Positions 48,834 through 64,000 of a DNA stretch of 64,000 nucleotides are shown here, one piece after another. The notes beneath the pieces were generated by a model. It was given only the letters and a program-made list of their open reading frames with translations. It searched no databases and was not told the DNA's origin. Every line of letters starts with the position of its first letter. Position 1 is the first letter of the stretch. Source of the DNA: Chitinophaga vietnamensis (lineage in GTDB: Bacteria; Bacteroidota; Bacteroidia; Chitinophagales; Chitinophagaceae); assembly GCF_902167635.1 (NCBI RefSeq), contig NZ_CABHMS010000005.1:459484-523483 (forward strand), given 5' to 3'. The position numbers and the translations under genes are program-made.

Positions 48834-50312
48834 ATGTATTTCATAGGCTACGATATCGGTTCTTCCTCTATCAAGGCGGCCTTGCTGGATGCGGCCAGTG
48901 GCAGATGTATCGCGTCTGCCACCAGCCCCTCCCGTGAAATGCCCATGCAGGCGCCGCATCCGGGCTGGGCAGAGCAAGACCCCGAAAGCTGGTGGAAAGA
49001 AGTGATCAACGCTACACAACTGCTCCGGCAACAATATACTTTTGATCCGCAACAGGTGAAAGGCATCGGCATCGCTTACCAGATGCACGGCCTCGTTTGT
49101 GTGGACCAGCAACAACAGGTGCTGCGCCCCGCGATCATCTGGTGCGACAGTCGCGCCGTGGAAACCGGCCAGGAAGCCTTCCATGCACTCGGCCAGGAAT
49201 ACTGCCTCTCGCATCTGCTGAACTCACCAGGCAATTTCACCGCCTCCAAACTGCGCTGGGTACAACAGCACGAACCTCATGTATACGAACGTATCCACAA
49301 AGTGATGCTGCCCGGCGATTACATCGCTATGCGCCTCACCGGGGAAATCGCTACCACGGTTACCGGTCTCTCCGAAGGAACTTTCTGGGACTTTGAACGT
49401 AAAACAGTGGCCACCGAACTGCTGCAACATTACCAGATCGACGCGGCCTTGCTTGCCAGCGTAGTGCCTGTATTCGGCCACCAGGGCGCGCTCACGACCC
49501 AGGCCGCTGCCACGCTTGGCCTGGCGGCAGGTACGCCGGTCACCTATCGCGCCGGTGATCAACCCAACAACGCGTTTTCATTGAATGTGCTGCAACCCGG
49601 CGAAGCCGCCACCACAGCGGGCACCTCGGGAGTGGTATATGCTGTGCACGACAAAAATGCCTACGACCGACAGAGCCGCGTAAACACTTTCGTGCATGTG
49701 AATAACGGAGACGAAGGCATCCGCAACGGTGTGCTTATGTGCCTCAACGGCACAGGCATCGCCAACAGCTGGCTGAAAAACCTGATCGGTAATATCACTT
49801 ATCCGGAAATGAATGCCCTGGCCGCCGCAGCCCCTCCGGGCGCCGCCGGCTTACAGGTGTTTCCATTCGGCAATGGCGCCGAACGTATCCTGAACAATCA
49901 GCGTATAGGCGCTACCGTTAGTAACCTGGATTTCAATATCCACGGCCGTGAACATATGCTCCGCGCGGTACAGGAGGGCATCGTGTTCGGCCTAAGCTAC
50001 GGCATGGACATCATGAAGGAAATGGACCTCCGCATCCACCGCGTGCGCGCAGGCAATGCCAATATGTTCCTCAGCCCGCTCTTCCGCGAAGCCTTCGCCA
50101 ACACTACCGGCGTAGTCATAGAATTATATGATACCGACGGCGCGCAAGGCGCTGCCCGCGGCGCTGCAACAGGCGCCGGATGCTATACGCCGGCTACCGC
50201 CTTCCAGGGAATGGAACGCCTGGCCGTCATAGAACCAGAACCGGCGCTACAGCGCCAGTACCGCGATTGCTATGGGCAATGGCTGCAAAGCCTGCAAGCG
50301 CGGCTGCAATAA
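48834..50312 (+). CDS. xylB: Xylulokinase XylB
   Basis: FGGY-family kinase of 492 aa that phosphorylates D-xylulose to xylulose 5-phosphate. The N-terminal phosphate loop is IGYDIGSSSIKAALLDA. The substrate region is GIAYQMHGLVCVD, and the ATP site includes TAGTSGVVYAVHDK. It sits between the symporter and xylose isomerase in one operon. Confidence 0.93.
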   Translation: MYFIGYDIGSSSIKAALLDAASGRCIASATSPSREMPMQAPHPGWAEQDPESWWKEVINATQLLRQQYTFDPQQVKGIGIAYQMHGLVCVDQQQQVLRPAIIWCDSRAVETGQEAFHALGQEYCLSHLLNSPGNFTASKLRWVQQHEPHVYERIHKVMLPGDYIAMRLTGEIATTVTGLSEGTFWDFERKTVATELLQHYQIDAALLASVVPVFGHQGALTTQAAATLGLAAGTPVTYRAGDQPNNAFSLNVLQPGEAATTAGTSGVVYAVHDKNAYDRQSRVNTFVHVNNGDEGIRNGVLMCLNGTGIANSWLKNLIGNITYPEMNALAAAAPPGAAGLQVFPFGNGAERILNNQRIGATVSNLDFNIHGREHMLRAVQEGIVFGLSYGMDIMKEMDLRIHRVRAGNANMFLSPLFREAFANTTGVVIELYDTDGAQGAARGAATGAGCYTPATAFQGMERLAVIEPEPALQRQYRDCYGQWLQSLQARLQ

Positions 50313-50351
50313 CGGTCATCACTATACGTTATTTTAAAATCCACATAAGTT

Positions 50352-51680
50352 ATGAGTATTACATTAGGAAACCACGAGTATTTCAAAGGGATCGGAAAGA
50401 TCAGCTACGAAGGGCCGCACTCAGACAATCCACTGGCTTACAAGTGGTATGATGAGAACCGCGTCATCGCCGGCAAAACCATGAAAGAACTTTTCCGCTT
50501 TGCAGTGGCCTATTGGCATACGTTCTGCGGCGTCGGCGGCGATCCTTTCGGCCCCGGTACCAAACAATTCCCATGGCTCGGCGCCGCCAATGATGAACAA
50601 CGTGCAAAAGACAAGATGGACGCCGCTTTTGAGTTCATCACAAAAATGGGCTTGCCCTATTATTGTTTTCACGATATAGACCTGGTAGATGAAGGCGCTT
50701 CCATCGCGGAATATGAAAGCCGCATGCAAAATATTGTGGCATATGCAAAACAGAAACAGCAAGCCAGCGGCGTGAAACTCCTCTGGGGCACTGCCAATGT
50801 TTTCAGCAATCCGCGCTATATGAACGGCGCTTCCACCAATCCCGATTTCTCCGTACTGGCCTACGCAGGCACACAGGTGAAAAATTCCCTCGACGCCACG
50901 ATCGCGCTCAATGGCGAAAACTATGTGTTCTGGGGCGGACGCGAAGGTTATATGACCCTGCTCAACACCAATATGAAACGGGAGCAGGAACATCTTGCAC
51001 GCTTCCTCGCCATGGCCCGCGATTATGCGCGCAAACAGGGTTTCAAAGGTACTTTCTTCATTGAGCCGAAACCTTGCGAGCCTACCAAACACCAGTATGA
51101 TTACGATAGCGCCACTGTGATCGGCTTCCTCCGTCACTACGGCCTTGATAAGGATTTTAAATTGAACATCGAGGTAAACCATGCTACCCTGGCGGGTCAC
51201 ACCTTCCAGCATGAATTGCAGGTGGCCGTCGATGCCGGCATGCTCGGCAGCATCGATGCCAACCGCGGCGACGCCCAGAACGGATGGGATACCGACCAGT
51301 TTCCCACCAGCCTCAATGAGCTGATCGAAAGTATGCTCATCATTCTCGAAGCCGGCGGCTTCGGCAGTGGCGGCGTTAACTTCGATGCCAAAACGCGCCG
51401 CAACTCCACCGACCTTGAAGATATTTTCTACGCGCACATCGGCGGTATCGATACTTTCGCGCGCGCCGCAGTGGTAGCAGAAAAAGTACTCACTACCACG
51501 CCATATAAAAAATTCAGGAACGAACGCTATGCTTCTTTTGATACTGGCAAAGGCAAAGAATTTGAGAACGGACAGCTGAGCCTCGAAGACCTCCGCACTT
51601 TCGCCATCGCCAATGGCGAACCGCACCAGATCAGCGGCAGGCAGGAATGGCTGGAAAATCTGATCAACAATTGTATTTAA
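50352..51680 (+). CDS. xylA: Xylose isomerase XylA
   Basis: Metal-dependent isomerase of 442 aa that converts D-xylose to D-xylulose. Key sites are [13 protein letters not shown] (catalytic His-Asp), [16 protein letters not shown] (metal Glu), [18 protein letters not shown] and SIDANRGD. The length and KWYDENRV start match the class II enzymes. The TAA stop is part of the following terminator stem. Confidence 0.97.
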
Positions 51681-51710
51681 AATTTCTCCCCCTGGCGGGG
51701 AGAAATTTTA
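51678..51710 (+). terminator. Terminator overlapping the xylA stop
   Basis: The 14-base arms 51678-51691 and 51697-51710 pair perfectly with a CTCCCC/GGGGAG core; the first three bases are the xylA TAA. It ends or reduces transcription before the epimerase gene. Confidence 0.82.
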
Positions 51711-51751
51711 TTGCTTATTTTTTCTATTTTGTTCTTTCAAAATAACACATC

Positions 51752-52702
51752 ATGGCTTTTGATATTAAAACCTTCCATGACGCAGGATTTGATATAGTAG
51801 CATTGACCGATGAAAAAAGTGGTACACAGGTAGAGATCATTCCCGCGCATGGCGCATTGCTGCATGCGTTCAAGGTGCAGCGCAACAGTGAAACAATGAA
51901 CCTGATCGACAGCTACACCAGCTTGTCTGATCTCGAAAAAGATTTGCGTAACAGCTTCAAGAACGTAAAACTCAGTCCCTATGCCTGCCGCATCAAAGAT
52001 GCGCAATACAACTGGGCCGGACAATCCTACACGCTCGAAAAAACGATCGCCCCCGGAAATGCCATCCATGGCCTGTTATACAATGCCGCCTTCCAGTTGA
52101 GCAGCCAGCATGCCGGAGATGACAGCGCCTCCATCACACTGTCCTGCACTTATCAACAGGAAGATCCGGGCTATCCTTTCACTTACGATTGCACAGCCAC
52201 CTACACGCTGCTGCCTGGCAACGAACTGAAAGTGACCACTACCATCACGAACCGCAGCAACACCACCATTCCGCTGATGGATGGCTGGCATCCTTATTTC
52301 AGCACCGGCACCCCGGTGGATGAGCTGGAACTAACCTTCGCCTCCAAAGAGATCGTGGAGTTCAATGCCGCCCTGATCCCGACAGGTAACGTGCTCCCCT
52401 ATACGGAGTTTGTAAAAGGCAAACTGCTGGCAGGCGTAGAACTGGATAACTCTTTCATCCTGGATTTTACACAGCCACAGCCGCTGGCCACACTCCACGA
52501 TCCGAAGAAGAATATCAGCATTTCCTTCCTCCCGGATCAAAGCTACCCGATCTTGCAGGTGTATATTCCGCCTCACCGGAACAGCATTGCTGTTGAAAAC
52601 CTGAGCGGCGCCCCTAATGCCTTTAACAACGGCCTGGGACTGGTGCAGCTGGCAGCGGGCGACAGTAAAACGTTTGAAACCAGGCTACAGGTAAGCGTAT
52701 AA
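51752..52702 (+). CDS. Aldose 1-epimerase (galactose mutarotase family)
   Basis: 316-aa enzyme that interconverts alpha and beta anomers of free sugars. The beta-sandwich pattern is clear, with PYACRIKDAQYNW, GNAIHGLLYN (with the catalytic His), DGWHPYFSTG (second His) and the C-terminal NAFNNGLGLVQL. It follows xylA after a terminator, so it may be partly co-expressed and supply the anomer used by the isomerase. Confidence 0.9.
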   Translation: MAFDIKTFHDAGFDIVALTDEKSGTQVEIIPAHGALLHAFKVQRNSETMNLIDSYTSLSDLEKDLRNSFKNVKLSPYACRIKDAQYNWAGQSYTLEKTIAPGNAIHGLLYNAAFQLSSQHAGDDSASITLSCTYQQEDPGYPFTYDCTATYTLLPGNELKVTTTITNRSNTTIPLMDGWHPYFSTGTPVDELELTFASKEIVEFNAALIPTGNVLPYTEFVKGKLLAGVELDNSFILDFTQPQPLATLHDPKKNISISFLPDQSYPILQVYIPPHRNSIAVENLSGAPNAFNNGLGLVQLAAGDSKTFETRLQVSV

Positions 52703-53834: not shown

Positions 53835-54929
53835 TCAGTTATAGACTTTAACGAGATATACGAAGTCTTCCAGTTTCTTGATCTGGTCCACTCTGTTCAG
53901 TCCTTCCAGGTGGCTTTTATAGTGCCAGTCTTTTTTCAGTTGTTTTTCTTTTGGCATTTCATCGAGCAGGCGTTTCAGGTGTGCTGATTTCACTGCGAAG
54001 GCAATACCATCGGAGGTGGTTTGTTTGCCGGTGATGATGCCTACAACGTCGCCTTTGCTGTCCAGCAGCGGCGCGCCGCTATTGCCCGGATTCACAGGGA
54101 TAGATACCTGGTAGGCGGTTGTATCGCCGGCGAAGCCGGTTTTAGCGCTGATGTAGCCTTTGCCGTAAACGATCTCGTCGCGGGGAAAGCCCATGGTGAA
54201 CACTTCTTCACCCAGTTTCACACTTTGCGGTTTGAGGGCGTAGGGCAATGCTTGTCCTTTGAAAGTAGAGTCTGCGATTTTCAGTACGGCGAGGTCGCTG
54301 GAGATATCTTCAAAAACGCTCACTGCTTTGAAGGCTTCGCCTTTGTTATTTTGTACATATACAGAATCAGCGCCGGCTACTACATGCAGGTTGGTAACAA
54401 TGTAACCGTTACCGGAAACGGCAAAGCCGGTGCCTCCGTAGGTGCCGGGATTGGCGGGCGGCTTGCTTTTGCTGTTGATATCATTGATGAGGGCGTTCTG
54501 AGAACGTTGAATGTTGTTCAGTACGCGTCTTACATCTTCGTATTGAGCGGTGGATTTGTTGCGGGCGGCGTTTTGTATCACAGCGATGGTGGAGAGGGAC
54601 GTCACCAGGGCGATACAGGCAGCGGCAGCCAGGTTGGTGATGGTGCGGCGGCGGATGGAGATCCTCTTTGCTTTGAGGTTATCTTCCATGGCTTGTTTGC
54701 GCATCAGCGGGAGGTCGAGTTGCTTGTGGATACTGTTCATTTTTTCCTGCAAAGCCTGGCGTTGGCCATAATGGCGGAATTGCAGTAAAAACAGTTGGTG
54801 TTCCTCTACTTGTTTATTGATCTGCGGATTGGTACGGCGCAGTTCATCAAAGGCAGCCTTCTCCTGGGTGTTCATTTCACCTTCCAGGTAGCGTTCAATT
54901 TCACGTAATAAGATCATGTCGTCGTTCAT
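53835..54929 (-). CDS. Anti-sigma-like N-terminus fused to a trypsin-like (S1C) serine protease
   Basis: 364 aa in three parts. Residues 1-95 are a cytoplasmic, helical segment that reads like a sigma-binding domain (LREIERYLEGEMNTQEKAAF). Residues 98-119 are a membrane segment. Residues 160-340 are a periplasmic HtrA-like protease with a complete triad: His182 (TNLHVVAGA), Asp212 (ISSDLAVLKI) and Ser284 (NPGNSGAPLLD). No PDZ domain is seen. The sigma gene lies nine bases upstream. The fusion suggests a membrane protease that also restrains its sigma factor and may regulate itself by cleavage. Confidence 0.88.
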   Translation of the reverse strand: MNDDMILLREIERYLEGEMNTQEKAAFDELRRTNPQINKQVEEHQLFLLQFRHYGQRQALQEKMNSIHKQLDLPLMRKQAMEDNLKAKRISIRRRTITNLAAAACIALVTSLSTIAVIQNAARNKSTAQYEDVRRVLNNIQRSQNALINDINSKSKPPANPGTYGGTGFAVSGNGYIVTNLHVVAGADSVYVQNNKGEAFKAVSVFEDISSDLAVLKIADSTFKGQALPYALKPQSVKLGEEVFTMGFPRDEIVYGKGYISAKTGFAGDTTAYQVSIPVNPGNSGAPLLDSKGDVVGIITGKQTTSDGIAFAVKSAHLKRLLDEMPKEKQLKKDWHYKSHLEGLNRVDQIKKLEDFVYLVKVYN

Positions 54930-54938
54930 GGCTGCTGC

Positions 54939-55514
54939 TTATAATGATGTATTGTATTGATCGAAAAAAAGTTTCTTGAGGCGCATCAGACATTTATACT
55001 TTTGGTTCTTTGCGTTTTCGGCGTTGGTATAGCCGAATTTGTCTGCTATTTCCTGCATGGTCCTTTTATGGAGATAATAATCTTCCAGGATGGATTTGCA
55101 GGGCTGGCCTATATTGCTCATGGCGCTTTCCATGATGCGGAACTGTTCGTCTTTAGCGTCGTGTTCGTCCAGGGCCTCGGTGGCGGGTATGATCTCTTCA
55201 ATTTCCGGTGGCAGGGCATGGAGGCCATAAGAGGCCTGTACTTTTTTCAGCCATAAATGTCGGCACACCGAATAGAGAAAAGTTTTCAGCCGGCTGGTCA
55301 ATATAAAATTATCGCCACAGGCCTTTTCATACAGCACGATAATCGCTTCCTGGAACACATCTTTGGCATCATCTTCCGATCCGTTGTGCTGTAGTATCAT
55401 CCTGAGCACAGCCGGAAAATTCTCTGAATAGATGATTTCCAACGACTTATCATCACTTCTTGCCAGTCCCAGCAATAATTCCCTGTCTCTTGTTATGTCT
55501 TGATTTTGCTTCAC
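54939..55514 (-). CDS. ECF-type sigma factor partnered with the membrane protease
   Basis: Sigma-70 family factor of 191 aa from the GTG at 55514 (MKQNQDITRDRELLLGLARS). Region 2 includes DVFQEAIIVLYEKA and LKTFLYSVCRHLWLKKV, and region 4 ends in MQEIADKFGYTNAENAKNQKYKCL. The open frame extends 14 codons further to a TTG (55556), but that part overlaps an inverted repeat and promoter-like sequence. It is transcribed with the protease fusion gene nine bases downstream. Confidence 0.88.
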   Translation of the reverse strand: MKQNQDITRDRELLLGLARSDDKSLEIIYSENFPAVLRMILQHNGSEDDAKDVFQEAIIVLYEKACGDNFILTSRLKTFLYSVCRHLWLKKVQASYGLHALPPEIEEIIPATEALDEHDAKDEQFRIMESAMSNIGQPCKSILEDYYLHKRTMQEIADKFGYTNAENAKNQKYKCLMRLKKLFFDQYNTSL

Positions 55515-55538
55515 TCTTAATACGGTTATAAGGCATTT

Positions 55539-55586
55539 GGTAACCCAAAGTACCAAAAAAAATATTTTTTAAAACATTGGGTTACC
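55539..55586. promoter_or_regulatory. Inverted repeat GGTAACCCAA/TTGGGTTACC in divergent promoter region
   Basis: A perfect 10-base inverse pair (55539-55548 and 55577-55586) separated by 28 bases of AT-rich sequence. The motif points outward to the sigma gene on one side and the lipoprotein gene on the other. A related TTGGGTGATCC follows at about 55589. It could be the -35 element recognised by this sigma factor (autoregulation) or an operator. Confidence 0.45.
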
Positions 55587-55646: not shown

Positions 55647-55889
55647 ATGAAGAACGTAATCAAAATCGGTTTCTTAGCTCTGTCTATCGGTATTTTCGCA
55701 GTTGCTTGCGGTGGTGGTGAAAACAAAACTGCTACTGACTCTACTGCTACTGCTGCTACTTCTGCCATTGATTCTGCTGCTCACGTAGCTGATTCAGCTG
55801 TTGCTAAAGTTGCTGACTCTGCTAAAGCTATCGTTGATTCAGCTGCTAAGAAAGTTGACTCTGCTGCTGCTAAAGCTGTAAAACACTAA
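55647..55889 (+). CDS. Small lipoprotein with Asp-Ser-Ala repeats
   Basis: 80 aa. A lipoprotein signal (GIFAVACGGGENK, acylated Cys at residue 21) is followed by a low-complexity Ala/Asp/Ser/Lys tail with a repeated DSAxxxV pattern about every 7-8 residues (IDSAAHVADSAVAKVADSA), consistent with an amphipathic helix such as a coiled coil. Codons are strongly biased to GCT. A terminator follows. It may be abundant and envelope-associated. The function is unknown. Confidence 0.8.
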   Translation: MKNVIKIGFLALSIGIFAVACGGGENKTATDSTATAATSAIDSAAHVADSAVAKVADSAKAIVDSAAKKVDSAAAKAVKH

Positions 55890-55915: not shown

Positions 55916-55946
55916 AACCGCCTCGGCAACCCCGGGGCGGTTTTTT
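55916..55946 (+). terminator. Terminator after the small lipoprotein
   Basis: AACCGCCTCGG (55916-55926) pairs with CCCGGGGCGGTT-type sequence ending at 55942, followed by six T. Confidence 0.88.
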
Positions 55947-56038: not shown

Positions 56039-56069
56039 ATTGGATAATTAAAATCGTGCCGTATTTTTG
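56039..56069 (+). promoter_or_regulatory. pheA: Promoter of the aromatic operon
   Basis: ATTG (56039-56042), exactly 19 bases, then TATTTTTG (56062-56069). This matches the Bacteroidota consensus. The transcript should start near 56075, about 24 bases before the first leader ATG. Confidence 0.7.
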
Positions 56070-56098
56070 TTCTACATTCAAAGCAATAACAGATAAAC

Positions 56099-56158
56099 AT
56101 GATACCGCAAGCGACTTTTGGTTTTTTTGGCTTTTATTATTTCTGGTACCAGGAATAG
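56099..56158 (+). CDS. Aromatic operon leader peptide 1 (19 aa, Phe/Tyr/Trp)
   Basis: MIPQATFGFFGFYYFWYQE, stop TAG at 56156-56158. Nine of the eleven residues 7-17 are aromatic: Phe, Tyr and one Trp (codons 56117-56149). The ORF lies just after the promoter and directly before an antiterminator/terminator pair. As all three aromatic amino acids are represented, scarcity of any should stall the ribosome. Confidence 0.88.
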   Translation: MIPQATFGFFGFYYFWYQE

Positions 56159-56232
56159 GGAGGTCGTTTGCAAGTAACAAAATATAAAAAGAAACTTCAA
56201 AAAGGCCTCCCGCGAAAACGGGAGGCCTTTTT
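56158..56232 (+). terminator. Attenuator 1 of the aromatic operon
   Basis: The terminator is a perfect 14-base stem, 56199-56212 with 56219-56232 (AAAAAGGCCTCCCG), loop CGAAAA, ending in five T. An antiterminator GGGAGGTCGTTT (56158-56169), beginning on the last base of the leader stop, can pair with AAAGGCCTCCC of the 5' arm, allowing one G-U pair and one bulged base. Confidence 0.85.
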
Positions 56233-56242
56233 GATTCAAGAA

Positions 56243-56335
56243 ATGTATCATATGACCAGCATTCACAACAATTACTTTTTTTATTACTACGCCTACTTCT
56301 TCTATGCGGAGAAGCCAGGGACTCATTTGCAATAA
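56243..56335 (+). CDS. Aromatic operon leader peptide 2 (30 aa, Phe/Tyr)
   Basis: Begins MYHMTSIHNN, then residues 11-21 are YFFYYYAYFFY (ten of eleven aromatic; codons 56273-56305), and ends AEKPGTHLQ. The ATG lies 11 bases after terminator 1, so it is made only when that terminator is bypassed. No Trp codon is present. A later ATG at 56252 is in the same frame. Confidence 0.88.
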   Translation: MYHMTSIHNNYFFYYYAYFFYAEKPGTHLQ

Positions 56336-56391
56336 TCAAACTTTACATATCAAAGTTTTTCCAGCAAAGGGTCCCGCAGGCGGGGCCCTTT
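56318..56391 (+). terminator. Attenuator 2 of the aromatic operon
   Basis: The terminator stem is 11 base pairs, 56366-56376 with 56381-56391 (AAAGGGTCCCG, one G-U pair), followed by TCTGTTT; its T-tract is weaker than in attenuator 1. The antiterminator GGGACTCATTT (56318-56328), in the last codons of leader 2, can pair with AAAGGGTCCC with one G-U pair and one bulged A. pheA starts 60 bases downstream. Confidence 0.78.
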
Positions 56392-56450
56392 CTGTTTCCG
56401 GTAGCTAGTTGCTACAGCAACTATAAATAAATAAAATCAATCACATACAC

Positions 56451-57275
56451 ATGAAAATTGCGATACAGGGGTTTGAAGGATGTTTTCACCAGGTGGCAGC
56501 CCGGGAATATTTCGGTAAACAGGTCGAAATAGAATCCTGTGCCTCCTTCGCCGAGCTGGTCAGGAAAGTGAAACAACAGCCCGATGTTGATGCCGGTATT
56601 ATGGCCATAGAAAACTCCATCGCCGGCAGCATTCTCCCGAACTACAGCCTGATCAAGAACTCCGGCCTGCATGTTACCGGCGAAGTATACCTGCAAATCA
56701 ACCAGCACCTCGTGGTGCTGCCCGGCCAAACCATGGAAGATATCCGGGAAGTACATTCCCATCCCATGGCGCTCTTACAGTGTATGGACTTCCTGGAGAA
56801 ATACCCGCATATCAAACTTGTGGAAACAGAAGATACCGCCCTCAGCGCCCGCCATGTAAGACAGAAGAAACTCAAATCCACCGCTGCCATCGCTGGTAAG
56901 CTCGCCGCTGAAATATTTGAACTGGATATCATCGCGCCCAATATCCACACCAACAAAAACAACTATACCCGCTTCCTGGCCGTATCCCGCAATGGCGTTG
57001 CCACCGCGCCTGATGCCAACAAAGCCTCCGTATATTTCCAGACCAGCCACGAACGCGGCAGCCTGGCTAAAGTGCTCACCAAAATTGCAGATGCCGGCAT
57101 CAACCTGTCGAAACTGCAATCATTTCCCATCCCGGCGAAAGAATGGAACTACTACTTCCACGCCGATATGGAATTTGATAACCTGGACCATTTCCAGAAA
57201 GCGCTCACGAAAATTGAACCATTAACCGAACACCTGAAAGTGCTGGGTATTTATAAAAAAGGTAAAACACATTAA
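56451..57275 (+). CDS. pheA: Prephenate dehydratase PheA
   Basis: 274-aa enzyme that converts prephenate to phenylpyruvate. The catalytic domain (about residues 1-180) has IAIQGFEGCFHQVAAREYF, MAIENSIAGSI and DTALSARHV-like TEDTALSARH. The C-terminal ACT domain (GSLAKVLTKIADAGINLSKL) should bind Phe; the usual ESRP motif is replaced by QSFP, a variation seen in Bacteroidota. There is no chorismate mutase part, because that is fused to DAHP synthase downstream. Confidence 0.95.
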   Translation: MKIAIQGFEGCFHQVAAREYFGKQVEIESCASFAELVRKVKQQPDVDAGIMAIENSIAGSILPNYSLIKNSGLHVTGEVYLQINQHLVVLPGQTMEDIREVHSHPMALLQCMDFLEKYPHIKLVETEDTALSARHVRQKKLKSTAAIAGKLAAEIFELDIIAPNIHTNKNNYTRFLAVSRNGVATAPDANKASVYFQTSHERGSLAKVLTKIADAGINLSKLQSFPIPAKEWNYYFHADMEFDNLDHFQKALTKIEPLTEHLKVLGIYKKGKTH

Positions 57276-57284
57276 TCAGGAGCT

Positions 57285-58451
57285 ATGCAGATAAAGGTTG
57301 CTAACAGACTACAAGGCACAGAAGAATACTATTTCTCCAAAAAGCTGAGAGAGATAGATGAGATGAACCAGCAGGGCACCCGGGTGATCAACCTCGGCAT
57401 CGGAAGCCCTGACCTGCCGCCACATCCCGATGTGGTGAAGGTGCTGAACGAACAGGCCTCCCTGCCCAATACCCATGCGTACCAGGGCTACAAAGGTATC
57501 CCGGCATTGCGTAAAGCCATCGCCGGCTGGTACGAGCGCTACTACCAGGTAACACTCAACCCTGATACAGAAGTGCTGCCACTCATCGGCTCCAAGGAAG
57601 GTATCATGCACATCTGCATGACCTACCTGCAACAAGGCGATGAGGCGCTGATCCCGAACCCGGGCTACCCTACCTATCGTTCGGCGGTACATCTCAGCGG
57701 CGCCACTGTAGTGGATTACGACCTGCATGCTGCCAATGGCTGGCTGCCCGATCTCGATGCATTGGCCAAAAAAGACCTGAGCCGCGTGAAGCTCATGTGG
57801 GTAAACTACCCGCATATGCCTACCGGCGCTAAAGTGAATAAAGCCTTCGCTAAAGACCTCATCGCTTTCGCGAAACAACATAACATTCTCATCTGCCATG
57901 ATAATCCTTACAGCTTCATCCTCAACGACCAGCCGGAAAGCCTGCTGCAAGTGGAAGGAGCCAAAGAGGTGGTGCTTGAACTCAACTCCCTCAGCAAATC
58001 CTCCAATATGGCGGGCTGGCGCATAGGGATGCTCTGCGGCAAAGCAGAATGGATCGCGGAAGTGTTGCGCTTCAAAAGCAATATGGACTCCGGTATGTTC
58101 CAGCCCCTGCAAATGGCCGCTGTAAAGGCTTTGGAGCTGGGTAAAGACTGGTACGACCAACTGAATAACATCTACAAAGGCCGCCGTGAAAAAGTATTCC
58201 AGCTGCTTGATCTGCTGGGATGCAACTACGACAAAAACCAGGTAGGCATGTTCGTTTGGGCGAAAATACCGGATACTAACGCAGACGGATATACGCTGAG
58301 CGACGCCGTATTGCATAAAGCACGCGTGTTCATCACACCGGGCGGCATCTTCGGCAGTAACGGTAACGGCTATATCAGGGTGAGCCTCTGCCAGGACGAA
58401 AAAGTTTTCCAGGAGGCAATAGACCGTATACAATCATCAATTAATCAATAA
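57285..58451 (+). CDS. Class I/II aminotransferase of the aromatic operon
   Basis: PLP fold-type I aminotransferase of 388 aa. Key segments are INLGIGSPDLPPHPDV, YPTYRSAVHLSG, CHDNPYSFILND and the PLP Lys motif SLSKSSNMAGWRIGM. It lies nine bases after pheA and four before tyrA, so it probably converts phenylpyruvate and hydroxyphenylpyruvate to Phe and Tyr. By sequence alone it could be an LL-diaminopimelate-type enzyme; the operon argues for aromatic substrates. Confidence 0.9.
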   Translation: MQIKVANRLQGTEEYYFSKKLREIDEMNQQGTRVINLGIGSPDLPPHPDVVKVLNEQASLPNTHAYQGYKGIPALRKAIAGWYERYYQVTLNPDTEVLPLIGSKEGIMHICMTYLQQGDEALIPNPGYPTYRSAVHLSGATVVDYDLHAANGWLPDLDALAKKDLSRVKLMWVNYPHMPTGAKVNKAFAKDLIAFAKQHNILICHDNPYSFILNDQPESLLQVEGAKEVVLELNSLSKSSNMAGWRIGMLCGKAEWIAEVLRFKSNMDSGMFQPLQMAAVKALELGKDWYDQLNNIYKGRREKVFQLLDLLGCNYDKNQVGMFVWAKIPDTNADGYTLSDAVLHKARVFITPGGIFGSNGNGYIRVSLCQDEKVFQEAIDRIQSSINQ

Positions 58452-58455
58452 CAGG

Positions 58456-59298
58456 ATGATCGCAACCATCATAGGAACAGGATTGATCGGCGGATCCATG
58501 GCTATCAGCCTGAAAGAGAAAGGCGCAGTAGATCGCGTGATAGGAGTAGACCAACAGGAAGAACACCTGAAACGCGCACTGGAACTGCATATCATAGACG
58601 AAGCAGCTACGATCGATGAGGCCATGCAACGTGCCGACCTTGTGATACTGGCCATCCCTGTGGATGCCGTTTTACAAGTGCTGCCCCGGCTGATGGATCA
58701 GGTACGCCCCGGCCAGGTGATCATGGACGTTGGTTCTACCAAACAAAAAATATTACAACTCGTTGCCGGTCATCCCAACAGGGGCCGCTTTGTGGCCGCC
58801 CACCCGATGGCCGGCACCGAGTATTCCGGCCCCGATGCGGCTATCCGGAATCTCTTCACCCACAAAACCATGGTGCTGTGCGATGTGAAGAACAGCGACG
58901 AAGACGCGCTGGAAATGGTGGAGAACGTGGTAGACCAATTGCAGATGCGCACCGTGTACATGAATGCAGAAGAGCATGACCTGCACACCGCCTACGTATC
59001 TCATATCTCCCACATTACCTCCTTCGCGCTGGCGCTCACCGTGCTCAAGAAGGAAAAAGAGCAGGGACGCATCTTTGAGCTGGCCAGCGGTGGTTTTGAA
59101 TCTACCGTGCGCCTGGCAAAAAGTTCGCCCGATATGTGGGTGCCCATCTTCAAACACAACCGCAACAATGTGCTGGACGTATTGGACGAGCATATCAACC
59201 AGCTACAACAGATGAAAACATTGTTGGAAGAAGAAGATTACGACACCTTTTACAAATTGATTCAAAAATCCAATAAAATCAGGAAGATCCTGAAATAA
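58456..59298 (+). CDS. tyrA: Prephenate dehydrogenase TyrA
   Basis: NAD(P)-dependent enzyme of 280 aa that makes 4-hydroxyphenylpyruvate. The Rossmann loop is IIGTGLIGGSMAISL, the catalytic region is AHPMAGTEYSGPDAA, and the C-terminal dimer helix includes HDLHTAYVSHISHITSFAL with the catalytic His. No ACT domain is fused. Confidence 0.95.
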   Translation: MIATIIGTGLIGGSMAISLKEKGAVDRVIGVDQQEEHLKRALELHIIDEAATIDEAMQRADLVILAIPVDAVLQVLPRLMDQVRPGQVIMDVGSTKQKILQLVAGHPNRGRFVAAHPMAGTEYSGPDAAIRNLFTHKTMVLCDVKNSDEDALEMVENVVDQLQMRTVYMNAEEHDLHTAYVSHISHITSFALALTVLKKEKEQGRIFELASGGFESTVRLAKSSPDMWVPIFKHNRNNVLDVLDEHINQLQQMKTLLEEEDYDTFYKLIQKSNKIRKILK

Positions 59299-59330: not shown

Positions 59331-60440
59331 ATGGAACAGCATACTACAATGGAGCAAATTCTTGCAAACACAAAATTCTCAGATCCTTCTTCAGATAAGA
59401 AGCCGCTGATCATCTCCGGTCCCTGCAGTGCAGAAACAGAGGAGCAAGTACTGGCCACCGCGCTGGCATTACAGAAAACAGGTAAGGTAGACGTATTACG
59501 CGCCGGTATCTGGAAACCCCGTACCCGTCCGGGTTCTTTCGAAGGTATCGGTACCAAAGGTTTGCCCTGGTTACAGAAAGCCCGCGAGCTCACTGGTTTG
59601 CCGCTGGCTGTGGAAGTAGCTACCGCCAAACAAGTAGAAGATGCCCTGCATTTTGGTGTGGATATCCTTTGGGTAGGAGCCCGAACTACTGTGAACCCTT
59701 TCTCTGTACAGGAAGTGGCCGATGCGCTGAAAGGCGTAGATACTACTGTATTGATCAAGAACCCGATCAACCCTGATCTGGAACTGTGGATCGGTGCGGT
59801 GGAAAGGATCCAGAAAGCAGGTATCTCCAAAGTAGGCCTGATCCACCGCGGCTTCTCCAGCTACGGTAACACACAATACCGCAACGCGCCCATGTGGCAC
59901 CTGGCCATCGAGCTGAAACGCCGTATGCCTGAATTGCCGATGATCTGCGATCCCAGCCACATCTCCGGCCGCCGCGATATCCTGCAGGAAGTATCCCAGG
60001 AAGCGATCGATCTGGATTACGATGGCCTGATGCTGGAAACGCACGTTGATCCGGACAACGCCTGGAGCGATGCCAAACAACAGGTTACGCCGGAGAAACT
60101 GGCCGAACTCCTCGATGGCATTGTATGGCGCCGTGAACATACCGACAAGAAAGATTTCAATAGTGCACTGGAAAAACTGCGTGCGCAGATCAACCAGGTA
60201 GATGACGAGATCATGCTGCTGTTGGGCAATCGTATGAAGATCGCTGAGAAGATCGGTATGTACAAGAAAGAAAACAACATCACCATCCTGCAAACCAACC
60301 GCTGGAACGAAATACTGGAACGTAACATCGCCAAAGGCGAGAAACTGGGCCTCACCAAGGAGTTCATCCTGAAATATTTCGATGCGGTGCACCTGGAATC
60401 CATCAACCGTCAGAACAAGGTGATGAACGAAGAGAAATAG
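59331..60440 (+). CDS. Bifunctional DAHP synthase / chorismate mutase
   Basis: 369-aa fusion. Residues about 1-265 are 3-deoxy-7-phosphoheptulonate synthase (GPCSAETEEQV, KPRTRPGSFEGIG, MICDPSHISGRRDI), the entry step of the shikimate pathway. The C-terminal 90 residues are an AroQ chorismate mutase helix bundle (LRAQINQVDDEIMLLLGNRM, KIGMYKKENN). The mutase may serve as the allosteric sensor of the synthase, as in related fusions. A second ATG at 59349 is an alternative start. Confidence 0.94.
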   Translation: MEQHTTMEQILANTKFSDPSSDKKPLIISGPCSAETEEQVLATALALQKTGKVDVLRAGIWKPRTRPGSFEGIGTKGLPWLQKARELTGLPLAVEVATAKQVEDALHFGVDILWVGARTTVNPFSVQEVADALKGVDTTVLIKNPINPDLELWIGAVERIQKAGISKVGLIHRGFSSYGNTQYRNAPMWHLAIELKRRMPELPMICDPSHISGRRDILQEVSQEAIDLDYDGLMLETHVDPDNAWSDAKQQVTPEKLAELLDGIVWRREHTDKKDFNSALEKLRAQINQVDDEIMLLLGNRMKIAEKIGMYKKENNITILQTNRWNEILERNIAKGEKLGLTKEFILKYFDAVHLESINRQNKVMNEEK

Positions 60441-60505: not shown

Positions 60506-61531
60506 ATGAAAAAAGTAACGAATCAGTTTCAAACGCAGGACACTACCTATTTTTTAGGAGCGAGCCTGCAACAATTAGGGGATCATGTAGACAGGAACAG
60601 GGCTGTGCTGGTGGTAGATGAAAATGTGGAGCGGTATCACGGCCATGACCTGCAAGGCTGGAAGAAGATCGTAGTGCCGGCGGGAGAAGAGGAGAAGCAC
60701 ATGGCCACCATCGAGCGCATCATCGATGGGCTGGTAGCACATGAGGCCGACCGCAAAACCACGCTGGTAGGCATTGGCGGCGGTATGATGACAGATGTGG
60801 CCGGTTTTGCCGCCAGCATTTATATGCGCGGTATTCCTTTCGGTTTTGTACCCAGCACTTTGCTGGCACAGGTGGATGCTTCCATCGGCGGCAAGAATGG
60901 CGTGAGCCATGGCAAGCACAAAAACCTGCTGGGCGTGATCCGTCAGCCTGAATTTATTCTCTTCGATTATGCGTTACCGTTAACCATGCCCGATGAAGAA
61001 TGGCATAATGGTTTTGCAGAGATCATCAAATATGCGTGCATCATGGATGCCGCGCTGTTCGATTACCTGGAGGCCAACCGCAGCAAAGCGCTGGCCCGCG
61101 ATGTGAACGTACTGGAATACCTGGTGGAAAAATCCGTTGCGGCCAAAACGAAAGTAGTGCTGGAAGACGAGTTTGAGACAGGCCCGCGCCGCTGGCTGAA
61201 CTTCGGCCATACATTGGGGCACGCCGTAGAAAAGCTGGAACACATCGCCCACGGAAAAGCAGTGGCCATCGGCATGGTGGCGGCAGCGCGCTTCTCCGAA
61301 AAGCTGATGAACCTGCCCAATGCGCAAACCCTGCGCCTCATCAAACTGATCAACGACTATCAATTGCCCGTGGCTTTCACATCAGACAAAGCAGCGGTAT
61401 TCGATATCTTCAAACTGGATAAAAAAAGAGAGAAGGACGTGATACATTTTGTTTTGCTGGAAGAGATAGGCAAGGCTACCACCATGCCTGTGCCCATTGC
61501 AGAACTGAACGGCTTATTGCAGGAGTTGTAA
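60506..61531 (+). CDS. aroB: 3-dehydroquinate synthase AroB
   Basis: NAD- and metal-dependent cyclase of 341 aa, second step of the shikimate pathway. Landmarks are GIGGGMMTDVAGFAASIYMRG, PSTLLAQVDASIGGKNGVSHG and the metal His motif FGHTLGHAVEKL. The length is normal for the family. Confidence 0.97.
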   Translation: MKKVTNQFQTQDTTYFLGASLQQLGDHVDRNRAVLVVDENVERYHGHDLQGWKKIVVPAGEEEKHMATIERIIDGLVAHEADRKTTLVGIGGGMMTDVAGFAASIYMRGIPFGFVPSTLLAQVDASIGGKNGVSHGKHKNLLGVIRQPEFILFDYALPLTMPDEEWHNGFAEIIKYACIMDAALFDYLEANRSKALARDVNVLEYLVEKSVAAKTKVVLEDEFETGPRRWLNFGHTLGHAVEKLEHIAHGKAVAIGMVAAARFSEKLMNLPNAQTLRLIKLINDYQLPVAFTSDKAAVFDIFKLDKKREKDVIHFVLLEEIGKATTMPVPIAELNGLLQEL

Positions 61532-61568: not shown

Positions 61569-62837
61569 ATGCAAGTTACTGTATCACCAGCCATCATACG
61601 GGGCACGGTTACGGCCAATCCCTCCAAGAGTGCCATGCAACGCGCTGTGGCAGCGGCTTTGCTGGCAAAGGGCAAAAGTATTATCCGTAACCCGGGCCTT
61701 AGCAACGATTGTCTGGCCGCCCTGGAGGTGGCAGAAAACCTCGGCGCAAAGATCAAAAGGGAAGCAGACTATTTTGAGATCACCAGCAATGGTGTACATC
61801 CGTTTTATGATGAGATCAACTGCGGAGAGTCTGGCCTCGGTATCCGCATGTTCACGCCCATAGCGGCTTTGGCATCTATCCCCATCACCATCAGCGGGCA
61901 TGGTAGCTTAACCACGCGCCCGATGAACTTCTTTGAAGAGGTGCTGCCCCAGCTGGATGTGAAATGCACTACGCAGGAAGGCAAGCTGCCCCTGCACATC
62001 GAAGGGCCTTTACAACCGAAGAATATCACCATCGACGGCTCGCTCAGTTCGCAGTTCCTCACAGGCCTGCTGATGGCCTATGGCGCTGCTGCCGAAGAGG
62101 TGACCATCACCGTAAAAGATCTTAAAAGCAAACCATATATCGCGTTAACCCTGCAACTGATGGAGCTTTTCGGCGTAAAGGTGGAAGAAACCAATTTCGA
62201 ACAGTTCCGCTTCGGCAAAAAGCAAGCGTACAAAGCGCAGGATTATACGGTAGAAGGCGATTGGAGTGGAGCAGCTTTCCTGCTGGTAGCCGCCGCGGTG
62301 GCCGGAAAGGCGGAAGTGCATCATATCAATACACAGTCTGCACAATCAGATAAAGCCATCCTGGAGGCTTTGCAGAAAGCCGGCGCTTCCATCCTGCCGG
62401 GCATGTTCACCATGGTCATCGAAAAGCATGGCCTGAATGCCTTTGAATTTGACGCTACCGATTGTCCGGATCTCTTCCCGCCGCTCGTAGCGCTCGCTGC
62501 TAACTGTAACGGTACTACGAAAATACAAGGCGTGAGTCGCCTTGCCCACAAAGAGAGCGACCGTGGTCTCACCTTGCAGGAAGAATTTGGCAAGATGGGT
62601 ATCCGCATCGATCTGCAAGGCGATGAAATGCTGGTGCATGGCGGCACCGGCCTCAAAGGCGCTACCGTACATTCGCATAACGATCACCGCATCGCGATGG
62701 CCTGCGCCATCGCAGCGCTCACCGCCGACGGACCAGTAGTGATCGAAAATGCGGAAGCGATCAACAAATCATATCCCGAATTTTATGATCATTTGCAGCA
62801 ACTTGGCGGTAAAGTGGCCATCGCGGCAAATGCATAA
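61569..62837 (+). CDS. aroA: EPSP synthase AroA
   Basis: 3-phosphoshikimate 1-carboxyvinyltransferase of 422 aa, sixth step of the shikimate pathway. The PEP/shikimate region is NPSKSAMQRAVAAALLAKG, followed by NCGESGLGIRMFTPIAAL, SSQFLTGLLMA and the C-terminal HSHNDHRIAMACAIAAL. It follows aroB after 37 bases. Confidence 0.96.
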   Translation: MQVTVSPAIIRGTVTANPSKSAMQRAVAAALLAKGKSIIRNPGLSNDCLAALEVAENLGAKIKREADYFEITSNGVHPFYDEINCGESGLGIRMFTPIAALASIPITISGHGSLTTRPMNFFEEVLPQLDVKCTTQEGKLPLHIEGPLQPKNITIDGSLSSQFLTGLLMAYGAAAEEVTITVKDLKSKPYIALTLQLMELFGVKVEETNFEQFRFGKKQAYKAQDYTVEGDWSGAAFLLVAAAVAGKAEVHHINTQSAQSDKAILEALQKAGASILPGMFTMVIEKHGLNAFEFDATDCPDLFPPLVALAANCNGTTKIQGVSRLAHKESDRGLTLQEEFGKMGIRIDLQGDEMLVHGGTGLKGATVHSHNDHRIAMACAIAALTADGPVVIENAEAINKSYPEFYDHLQQLGGKVAIAANA

Positions 62838-62863: not shown

Positions 62864-63874
62864 GTGAATAGTTTTGGCAGAATATTCAGGGTAAATGTTT
62901 TTGGCGAGAGCCACGGCGCCAGCGTAGGAGTGAATATCGACGGTATTCCTGCCGGTATCCCTTTGAAGCAGGAAGATTTTCTGGCTGACCTCGAACGCCG
63001 TAAGGGCGGCGCACGGGGCACCACGCCGCGTAAGGAGGAAGACCTGCCCTTTATCAAATCGGGCGTGTTCAACGATCATACCACCGGTGCGCCTGTAACC
63101 ATCCTCTTTGAAAATAACAATACCCGCAGCACCGACTACGAAAAGCTGCGCGAGTTTCCACGGCCGGGCCATGCCGATTTTGTAGCGACCAAAAAATTCG
63201 GCGGTTTTGAAGATTACCGTGGTGGCGGGCATTTCAGCGGCAGGCTTACCCTTAACCTGGTAGCCGCCGGCGTGATCGCGAAGAAGATACTGGGTGATGA
63301 TATCCAGGTGAATGCGCGCATCACGGAAGTGGGCGGTTATGCCAACCCGGAAGAAGGACTGGAAGCGGCGATAGCGGCCAAAGACTCCGTTGGCGGCATC
63401 GTGGAATGTGTGGTCACCGGCCTGCCTATCGGCCTCGGCGAGCCTTTCTTTGACTCGCTGGAATCATCACTGGCGCATGCAGTATTTGCTATCCCCGCTA
63501 TCAAAGGCATCGAATTTGGCGCAGGCTTCGCCGCGGCCAAAATGAAAGGCCTCGAACACAACGACCCGATCGTGGATGCCAGCGGCAAAACCGCTACTAA
63601 TCACGCCGGCGGCATTGTGGGCGGTATCAGCAACGGTAATCCGCTCGTTTTTCGTATAGCCGTGAAGCCTACTTCCAGTACACCGAAAGAACAGCATACT
63701 TTAAATATCAAAAGCGGCGAGGTGGAAACCTTCAGCGTAAAAGGCCGTCATGACCTTTGCATCGCGCTGCGGGTGCCGGTGGTGCTGGAAGCCGTAACAG
63801 CCATGGTGCTGGCGGATTTCGTGCTGCTCGAGCAGCGCAGGCCGCGGGTATTTTCACGCAAAGACGCTAAGTAG
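62864..63874 (+). CDS. aroC: Chorismate synthase AroC
   Basis: FMN-dependent lyase of 336 aa, final step to chorismate. GTG start with the normal beginning MNSFGRIFRVNVFGESHGAS. Further motifs are RPGHADFVATKKFGG, YRGGGHFSGRLTLN and NHAGGIVGGISNG. After the family's usual end (AMVLADFVLLEQR) about ten extra residues (RPRVFSRKDAK) appear. The last of these, with the TAG stop, are encoded by a GCAAAG-type repeat, so the native 3' end seems to have been replaced. Confidence 0.95.
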   Translation: MNSFGRIFRVNVFGESHGASVGVNIDGIPAGIPLKQEDFLADLERRKGGARGTTPRKEEDLPFIKSGVFNDHTTGAPVTILFENNNTRSTDYEKLREFPRPGHADFVATKKFGGFEDYRGGGHFSGRLTLNLVAAGVIAKKILGDDIQVNARITEVGGYANPEEGLEAAIAAKDSVGGIVECVVTGLPIGLGEPFFDSLESSLAHAVFAIPAIKGIEFGAGFAAAKMKGLEHNDPIVDASGKTATNHAGGIVGGISNGNPLVFRIAVKPTSSTPKEQHTLNIKSGEVETFSVKGRHDLCIALRVPVVLEAVTAMVLADFVLLEQRRPRVFSRKDAK

Positions 63875-63990: not shown

Positions 63991-64000
63991 TGAGAAGATC

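Follow-up and report, generated by a model that had tools for sequence, protein, structure and literature searches.

The aromatic operon of Chitinophaga vietnamensis

The window, the whole 64,000-nucleotide stretch of the C. vietnamensis genome that was analysed, carries an operon for the synthesis of aromatic amino acids at its downstream end:

56451–57275, plus strand: pheA, prephenate dehydratase, the first structural gene
57285–58451, plus strand: PLP aminotransferase, class I/II
58456–59298, plus strand: tyrA, prephenate dehydrogenase
59331–60440, plus strand: DAHP synthase with a C-terminal chorismate mutase
60506–61531, plus strand: aroB, 3-dehydroquinate synthase
61569–62837, plus strand: aroA, EPSP synthase
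62864–63874, plus strand: aroC, chorismate synthase; the window ends at 64000

As an earlier, sequence-only reading of this DNA had stated, the operon mixes common-pathway genes (DAHP synthase, aroB, aroA and aroC) with Phe/Tyr-specific ones. Its DAHP synthase is the only one found in the genome: the second PF00793 protein is a KDO8P synthase, and a search for a type II enzyme (PF01474) found none. The trp operon of the same genome (L200:702–830) is preceded by a single leader with a WWW run, MQNIMTNNKHWWWHGINS, and a terminator. The gene that follows is trpE-like (TIGR00564, under its cut-off), and the leader scores 26.4 bits against the Bacteroid-trp model (RF01692), under the cut-off of 49.

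Several other features lie nearby in the window. The stretch 53835–55556 on the minus strand, divergent from the aromatic operon, gives a weak Sigma70_r2 match (ECF-like) and adjoins a trypsin-like protease gene. An 80-residue protein with a lipoprotein-like start, an Ala/Asp/Ser-rich stretch and no Pfam match is encoded at 55647–55889, and a terminator-like site follows its gene at 55916–55942. A xylose-like set of genes (kinase, isomerase and epimerase, named by eye) occupies 48834–52702.

Layout of the leader region

The region upstream of pheA contains two leader ORFs, each followed by a terminator-like hairpin; we refer to each such unit as a gate and number the pairing segments of each gate as arms 1–4:

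56040–56069, plus strand: promoter motif TTG (56040–56042)-N19-TATTTTTG (56062–56069), conserved in Chitinophaga-type upstreams
56099–56158, plus strand: leader ORF 1, MIPQATFGFFGFYYFWYQE, 19 aa, with Phe/Tyr and one Trp
56107–56118, plus strand: gate 1 arm 1, codons 3–7 of leader 1; its partner is arm 2 at 56160–56171
56158–56171, plus strand: gate 1 arm 2, its first base being the last base of the leader 1 stop codon
56197–56234, plus strand: terminator hairpin T1, with arm 3 core 56204–56211 and arm 4 core 56220–56227, then T5
56252–56335, plus strand: leader ORF 2, MTSIHNNYFFYYYAYFFYAEKPGTHLQ, 27 aa, with Phe and Tyr only
56296–56314, plus strand: small hairpin within leader 2, CTTCTTC with GGAGAAG
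56318–56330, plus strand: gate 2 arm 2, GGGACTC and TTTGC, whose partner is arm 3
56364–56399, plus strand: terminator hairpin T2, with arm 3 56364–56375 and arm 4 core 56382–56388, the T tract interrupted

The sequence at 56040–56069 is what we take to be a Bacteroidota-type promoter motif. The consensus promoter of the sequence-only reading needs correcting as to its type; a scan for E. coli-type promoters gave 2 sites versus 1.6 in shuffles, which is the chance level. Leader 1 is as had been described, a 19-residue peptide in which codons 7–17 are rich in Phe, Tyr and Trp (9 of 11 aromatic). The aromatic run of leader 2, YFFYYYAYFFY, likewise has the ten aromatic codons out of eleven claimed for it, but the 30-residue start assigned at first (ATG 56243) probably gives way to the second in-frame ATG at 56252, which relatives favour and which yields 27 residues.

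The T1 stem has 17 pairs in one scan and 16 in another, and so is longer than the 14 bp originally given. Bases 56158–56165 of gate 1 arm 2 pair with arm 3. The second terminator stands where it had been placed, before pheA, with its stem spanning about 56366–56391. Its U-tract is broken in the window (TTTCTGTTT), which explains its failure in the strict scan of the window for further leader–terminator units, passed by leader 1 alone; T2 was also absent from two stricter terminator scans of the window. A simple scan found 2 terminator-like sites versus 1.0 expected from shuffles, and registered T1 on the minus strand only, the plus-strand T-run falling within the stem. Both T1 and T2 were accepted by the ORF-plus-terminator classifier applied below. 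The leader region as a whole (56040–56450) folds with a z of −6.1, and none of 100 shuffles folded equally well.

In a T-box, uncharged tRNA is bound by the RNA itself and no leader peptide takes part. A T-box or riboswitch was considered here and set aside, since no Rfam match reached threshold and the 30 matches with E up to 5 included no T-box. No Rfam family reached its gathering threshold in the window. The Phe_leader family (RF01859) scored 40.8 bits at 56108–56235, under its gathering cut-off of 55, and Thr_leader scored 34.9 on the same stretch, the leader 1 region; gate 2 was unmatched by RF01859.

Both leaders are conserved in Chitinophaga

PheA is present in all 60 genomes of the genus, 59 of which were usable upstream of the gene; in the remaining one (G006) the contig starts too close. 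Alignment and arm listing of these 59 loci showed the two leaders, and the arms of each gate, throughout. Leader 2 of two loci (L037 and L056) was missed by a simple first filter and detected in the later ORF count. For counting we used a Chitinophaga-type set of 107 loci with 71 distinct upstreams, in which some genomes are present via two collections and which includes two differently named records, L282 (uncultured Flavihumibacter) and L301 ([Flexibacter]).

Both leader ORFs occur in 71/71 of these upstreams, and the best 11-codon window holds 8–9 aromatic codons in leader 1 and 7–11 in leader 2. The alignment that had been suggested as a check thus reveals conserved aromatic codon runs in both leaders throughout the set. 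The restriction of Trp to the first leader, seen originally in one sequence, extends across the set as well: leader 1 has exactly one Trp codon in 70/71 upstreams (none in L020, which has Cys instead), versus 0/71 for leader 2. Folds such as those of L018 and L020 place the Trp codon's third base in a hairpin loop, which favours its upkeep for Trp over upkeep for RNA shape. In L299 (Chitinophaga sedimenti) the leader 2 frame is shifted past the first aromatic codons, by natural variation or sequencing error.

Relative to the Trp codon, leader 1 has Gly at position −5 in 66/71 upstreams and Tyr at −3 in 71/71. This rather constant amino acid sequence is what one might expect if the peptides, or the leader RNAs left by termination, acted in trans, as a small protein, sRNA or arrest peptide, besides or instead of in cis, and for another leader peptide a role in trans is reported in the part of PMC7298713 consulted. 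On the other hand, Phe and Tyr swap freely at some leader 1 positions (36 Tyr and 35 Phe at −2), as would be expected if nothing but the codon class mattered. We consider action in trans unlikely, and favour a role for the leaders in cis.

The ORF-plus-terminator classifier was run on 281 distinct upstreams from all lineages, representing 325 loci; six loci were excluded because their upstreams were short (L060, L100, L249, L291, L328 and L334). It assigned two units to 77 upstreams, one unit to 169 and none to 35. Units were found in 0/281 dinucleotide shuffles (one per upstream), and the reverse complements gave one unit in 3/281. Within the Chitinophaga-type set, two units were recognised in 64/71 upstreams and one in 7/71.

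Arms match within each gate

In an in silico arm-swap test, each arm was paired with its own partner and with the partners from other Chitinophaga species, using 36 to 44 distinct pairs. Native pairings were the more stable for every helix, the mean of none of 2000 permutations being as low: −13.17 versus −11.29 kcal/mol for gate 1 arms 1:2, −16.20 versus −13.70 kcal/mol for gate 1 arms 2:3, −20.39 versus −18.06 kcal/mol for gate 1 arms 3:4, −20.92 versus −18.23 kcal/mol for gate 2 arms 2:3 and −20.69 versus −19.72 kcal/mol for gate 2 arms 3:4. Cross-talk between the gates, in which arm 2 of one would pair with arm 3 of the other, gave no signal (180 and 1723 of 2000 permutations). A repeat with the classifier's arms from 64 Chitinophaga-type upstreams returned 0/1000 for each of 2:3 and 3:4, and 882 and 999 of 1000 for the cross-gate pairs. 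In 12 Hymenobacteraceae-like upstreams with two units, described below, the 2:3 pairing was again supported (0 and 6 of 1000); 3:4 was less so in gate 1 (29/1000) than in gate 2 (0/1000), and the cross-gate pairs gave 745 and 825 of 1000. These permutations, like those of alignment columns, ignore relatedness between sequences.

Column covariation was counted in 30 sequences for gate 1 and 28 for gate 2, hand-picked from 44 references. None of the 500 shuffles came up to the covariation score of gate 1 2:3, gate 1 3:4 or gate 2 2:3. It was weak for gate 2 3:4 (112/500 shuffles as high) and was reached by 1/500 shuffles for the small hairpin in leader 2, and covariation was absent for gate 1 1:2 (266/500 as high). 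Two stricter column measures count the pairs in which both bases have changed and the additional pair types; across the six helices, between 46 and 500 of the 500 shuffles did as well. The compensatory stem changes that the sequence-only reading had named as a check are visible in part: they appear in the covariation score, for three helices, and do not clearly go beyond shuffles by the stricter measures. A shift in the 1:2 register between species may hide the gate 1 pairing from the column count; in two of nine loci listed, L052 and L043, its arms pair weakly. In gate 2, the protector (1:2) role would be filled only by a short local hairpin.

A single promoter motif and the geometry of the ribosome

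Among the 64 Chitinophaga-type upstreams with two units, TAnnTTTG occurs before leader 1 in 64/64, and the fuller motif TTG-N17–23-TAnnTTTG in 62/64. Between T1 and leader 2 TAnnTTTG is found in 1/64, and between T2 and pheA in 0/64. These counts bear on the suggestion that the two leaders serve two promoters and are alternatives rather than serial gates. Bacterial operons commonly have several start sites, which lends that suggestion some prior plausibility. Nevertheless, a separate promoter for leader 2 is unlikely as far as motifs of the TAnnTTTG type are concerned, and T1 and leader 2 are separated by a median of 26 nt. We regard the two-promoter arrangement as very improbable and proceed with serial gates on one transcript.

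To model ribosome positions in the window, the footprint was taken to be about 30 nt, extending 15 bases in each direction from the first base of the P site. A ribosome stalled with an aromatic codon, whichever one, in its A site would leave gate 2 arm 2 wholly free, together with the 1:2 segment of arm 2 in gate 1. A ribosome that has reached the stop codon would cover 9 of the 12 bases of that segment, and 13 of 13 bases of gate 2 arm 2. The antiterminator pairing 2:3 has the expected properties at each gate, in that it excludes the terminator and would be covered by a ribosome at the stop. In leader 1, ribosomes stalled at the early Phe codons would also cover arm 1, while stalls at codons 14–17, which include Trp, would leave arm 1 uncovered, and a stall at codon 17 would reach two bases into the 2:3 segment. 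For these reasons, stalling at Trp may work less well.

The gates in related bacteria

PheA loci were fetched by family, class and order searches (93 of 103, 47 of 53 and 30 of 39, respectively). The other Chitinophagaceae comprise 114 distinct upstreams, including some from named metagenome-assembled genomes whose label goes no further than Bacteroidetes, Sphingobacteriales or Chitinophagales. One leader ORF or more was found in 113/114 of these upstreams, and the classifier assigned one leader–terminator unit to 109/114 and two to 0/114. Trp is present in 22/113 of these single leaders, and so is no general mark of a first gate. TCCCGG is found in the terminator 5′ arm of 85/109 single-unit upstreams. 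TCCCG was also considered as a mark of gate 2, and rejected because it occurs in 24/64 T1 arms as well as in 58/64 T2 arms. Leader 2 resembles the single leaders in its place and, by eye, in its ending, from which gate 2 is probably the older of the two.

A second group with two leaders is family f50, represented by the best 30 of its 79 PheA loci together with L329 and L331, 32 in all. We take it to be Hymenobacteraceae because L329, from Hymenobacter, shares 72–81% DNA identity with the 24 f50 loci shown, and because L329 and L331 fall in the f50 PheA clade; the placement of L331 comes from a tree without 24 minus-strand loci, and L329 is also in a hand-picked tree of 64 rows. Within this sample of 32, 24 have two leader ORFs and eight have one, and the classifier recognised two units in 12. 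Seven retain, by eye, a lone gate-1-like leader with its terminator (L217, L220, L221, L224, L225, L329 and L331); the other, L204, has leader 2 and a weaker first leader that is below threshold.

These distributions bear on the proposal that gate 2 alone regulates the operon, leader 1 and T1 being a relic or mainly a source of short RNA or peptide. Gate 2 does occupy the place of the relatives' single gate, with a similar ending by eye, and that single gate, whose leader ORF is so widespread in other Chitinophagaceae, is presumably the regulator there. Against this, leader 1 is kept in every Chitinophaga-type upstream, its arms match within species, and the seven Hymenobacteraceae-like loci have kept precisely the gate-1-like unit. 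Regulation by gate 2 alone is in our judgement quite improbable, and a working gate 1 is the reading that we retain.

The PheA proteins of the Hymenobacteraceae-like loci (L090, L093, L201–L228) and those of the Chitinophagaceae form one clade with support of 100/99, which in the 64-row tree excludes nearly all rows of other families. This placement hints at transfer of the operon. As to whether the double gate arose once or several times, a grouping of the Hymenobacteraceae-like PheA with that of Chitinophaga is not rejected (AU p 0.378), the bootstrap being not fully settled. In the other groups the classifier found two units in 1/64 upstreams, that of L242 (family f2, same order), which hints that the arrangement arose one further time, in another family. 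Both leader–terminator units of L242 contain Trp. In the same family, L104 has two leader-like ORFs and one unit.

Two attenuators in series: a model

The anatomy of the leader region, its conservation, the matching of arms, the single promoter motif and the geometry are all computational observations. Our reading of the locus, to which we assign a probability of about 80%, is that two complete ribosome-mediated attenuators stand in series before the aromatic operon. The way in which they would operate, through stalling and termination to a multiplied response, we infer as follows. The attenuation model assumes that transcription and translation are coupled in Bacteroidota. A ribosome that reaches the stop codon of a leader would cover arm 2, leaving arms 3 and 4 to pair and RNA polymerase to terminate. 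A ribosome stalled at an aromatic codon when the charged tRNA is scarce would instead leave arm 2 free to take arm 3, and readthrough would follow.

Gate 1 would read Phe, Tyr and Trp codons and gate 2 only Phe and Tyr codons. With amino acids plentiful, both gates would be shut; a shortage of Phe or Tyr would open both, and a shortage of Trp would open gate 1 alone and bring about a small rise. Since Trp shortage alone could not open gate 2, the Trp codon would give partial rather than full derepression. Because both gates lie on one transcript, with one promoter and two serial terminators, their readthroughs would multiply. This agrees with the sequential gating and combined response proposed in the sequence-only reading, which the comparison of relatives largely supports. 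Taking 0.1 for a shut gate and 0.8 for an open one, purely as an illustration, the products are 0.01 in replete conditions, 0.08 when Trp is short and 0.64 when Phe or Tyr is short.

Such a scheme would suit this operon, since it holds chorismate-pathway genes together with pheA, tyrA and the only DAHP synthase found. The last point makes sense of the Trp codon in gate 1; with a second DAHP synthase in the genome, control of the aromatic operon by Trp would be pointless. We lean, with some reserve, towards a further interpretation, a two-input gate in which gate 1 would report demand on the common pathway and gate 2 demand on the branch, their product setting three levels (replete, Trp-short and Phe/Tyr-short), and in which gates would be gained and lost as modules. 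Two complete copies in series would show that leader-peptide switches can be stacked, with a wider range and with common-pathway demand weighed against branch demand. The natural one-gate relatives make the contribution of the second gate directly testable.

Comparison with known systems

Our literature search, which covered few subscription papers, found no two leader-peptide attenuators placed back to back before an amino acid biosynthetic operon. The published systems are compared here as they appear in the portions of the cited papers that we consulted. Single pheA attenuators are among the closest systems. Besides E. coli pheL (RF01859), a putative attenuator is listed for the pheA operon of Bacteroides thetaiotaomicron (PMC1173090, Table 7), and for flavobacteria PMC9723704 reports clues to leader-peptide attenuation as well as a 5′ element that is conserved at pheA. 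Like the Chitinophaga gates, these have an aromatic leader, a terminator and an antiterminator; they have one gate, however, whereas Chitinophaga has two. The Bacteroid-trp leader (RF01692; PMC2864571) is likewise a leader attenuator of Bacteroidetes, and is a single one for Trp.

Double arrangements of other sorts are already in print. The Phe/Tyr supraoperon of Streptococcus pneumoniae displays ‘two attenuator units’ (PMC1173090), so that here too two predicted attenuators are linked to a Phe/Tyr operon, although these units may be T-boxes or stand apart from each other. Tandem T-boxes in trp operons of Bacillota (PMC12452182) are likewise two serial transcription gates that sense tRNA, and a pseudo-cooperative response is expected of them; their ligands are identical, as described in that account, unlike the two codon sets of Chitinophaga. 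In several Gammaproteobacteria, the rimP-leader (PMC2965389) also places tandem terminators ahead of a gene, and a potential antiterminator accompanies the first of them; this leader is described in the sections consulted without an amino-acid leader peptide.

Two leader ORFs on one RNA are known as well. The Salmonella mgtCBR leader (PMC3641672) has tandem leader ORFs with signals of their own. The signals reported there are ATP and proline, with additive effects, whereas both Chitinophaga leaders hold aromatic codons; the mgtCBR stem-loops are, by that description, unlike intrinsic terminators, whereas each Chitinophaga leader has a terminator-like hairpin. The mefA/msrD ‘double-lock’ (PMC10314930) combines two leader-peptide transcription attenuators within a single operon, of which msrDL carries an intrinsic terminator. 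According to the portion consulted, it belongs to a macrolide-sensing resistance operon, and its second attenuator controls msrD alone. The ermB leader similarly contains two leader peptides, ermBL and ermBL2 (PMC8274638); it is presented there as an erythromycin-induced translational attenuator, whereas the Chitinophaga gates are predicted transcription attenuators.

What appears to be new here, in the literature searched, is the predicted arrangement of two leader-peptide attenuators in series before a biosynthetic operon, and it adds to the scant literature that we found on attenuation in Bacteroidota. Leader-peptide attenuation of the textbook kind is a single switch; here the predicted switch is present in two copies, with different codon sets, that are kept across a genus.
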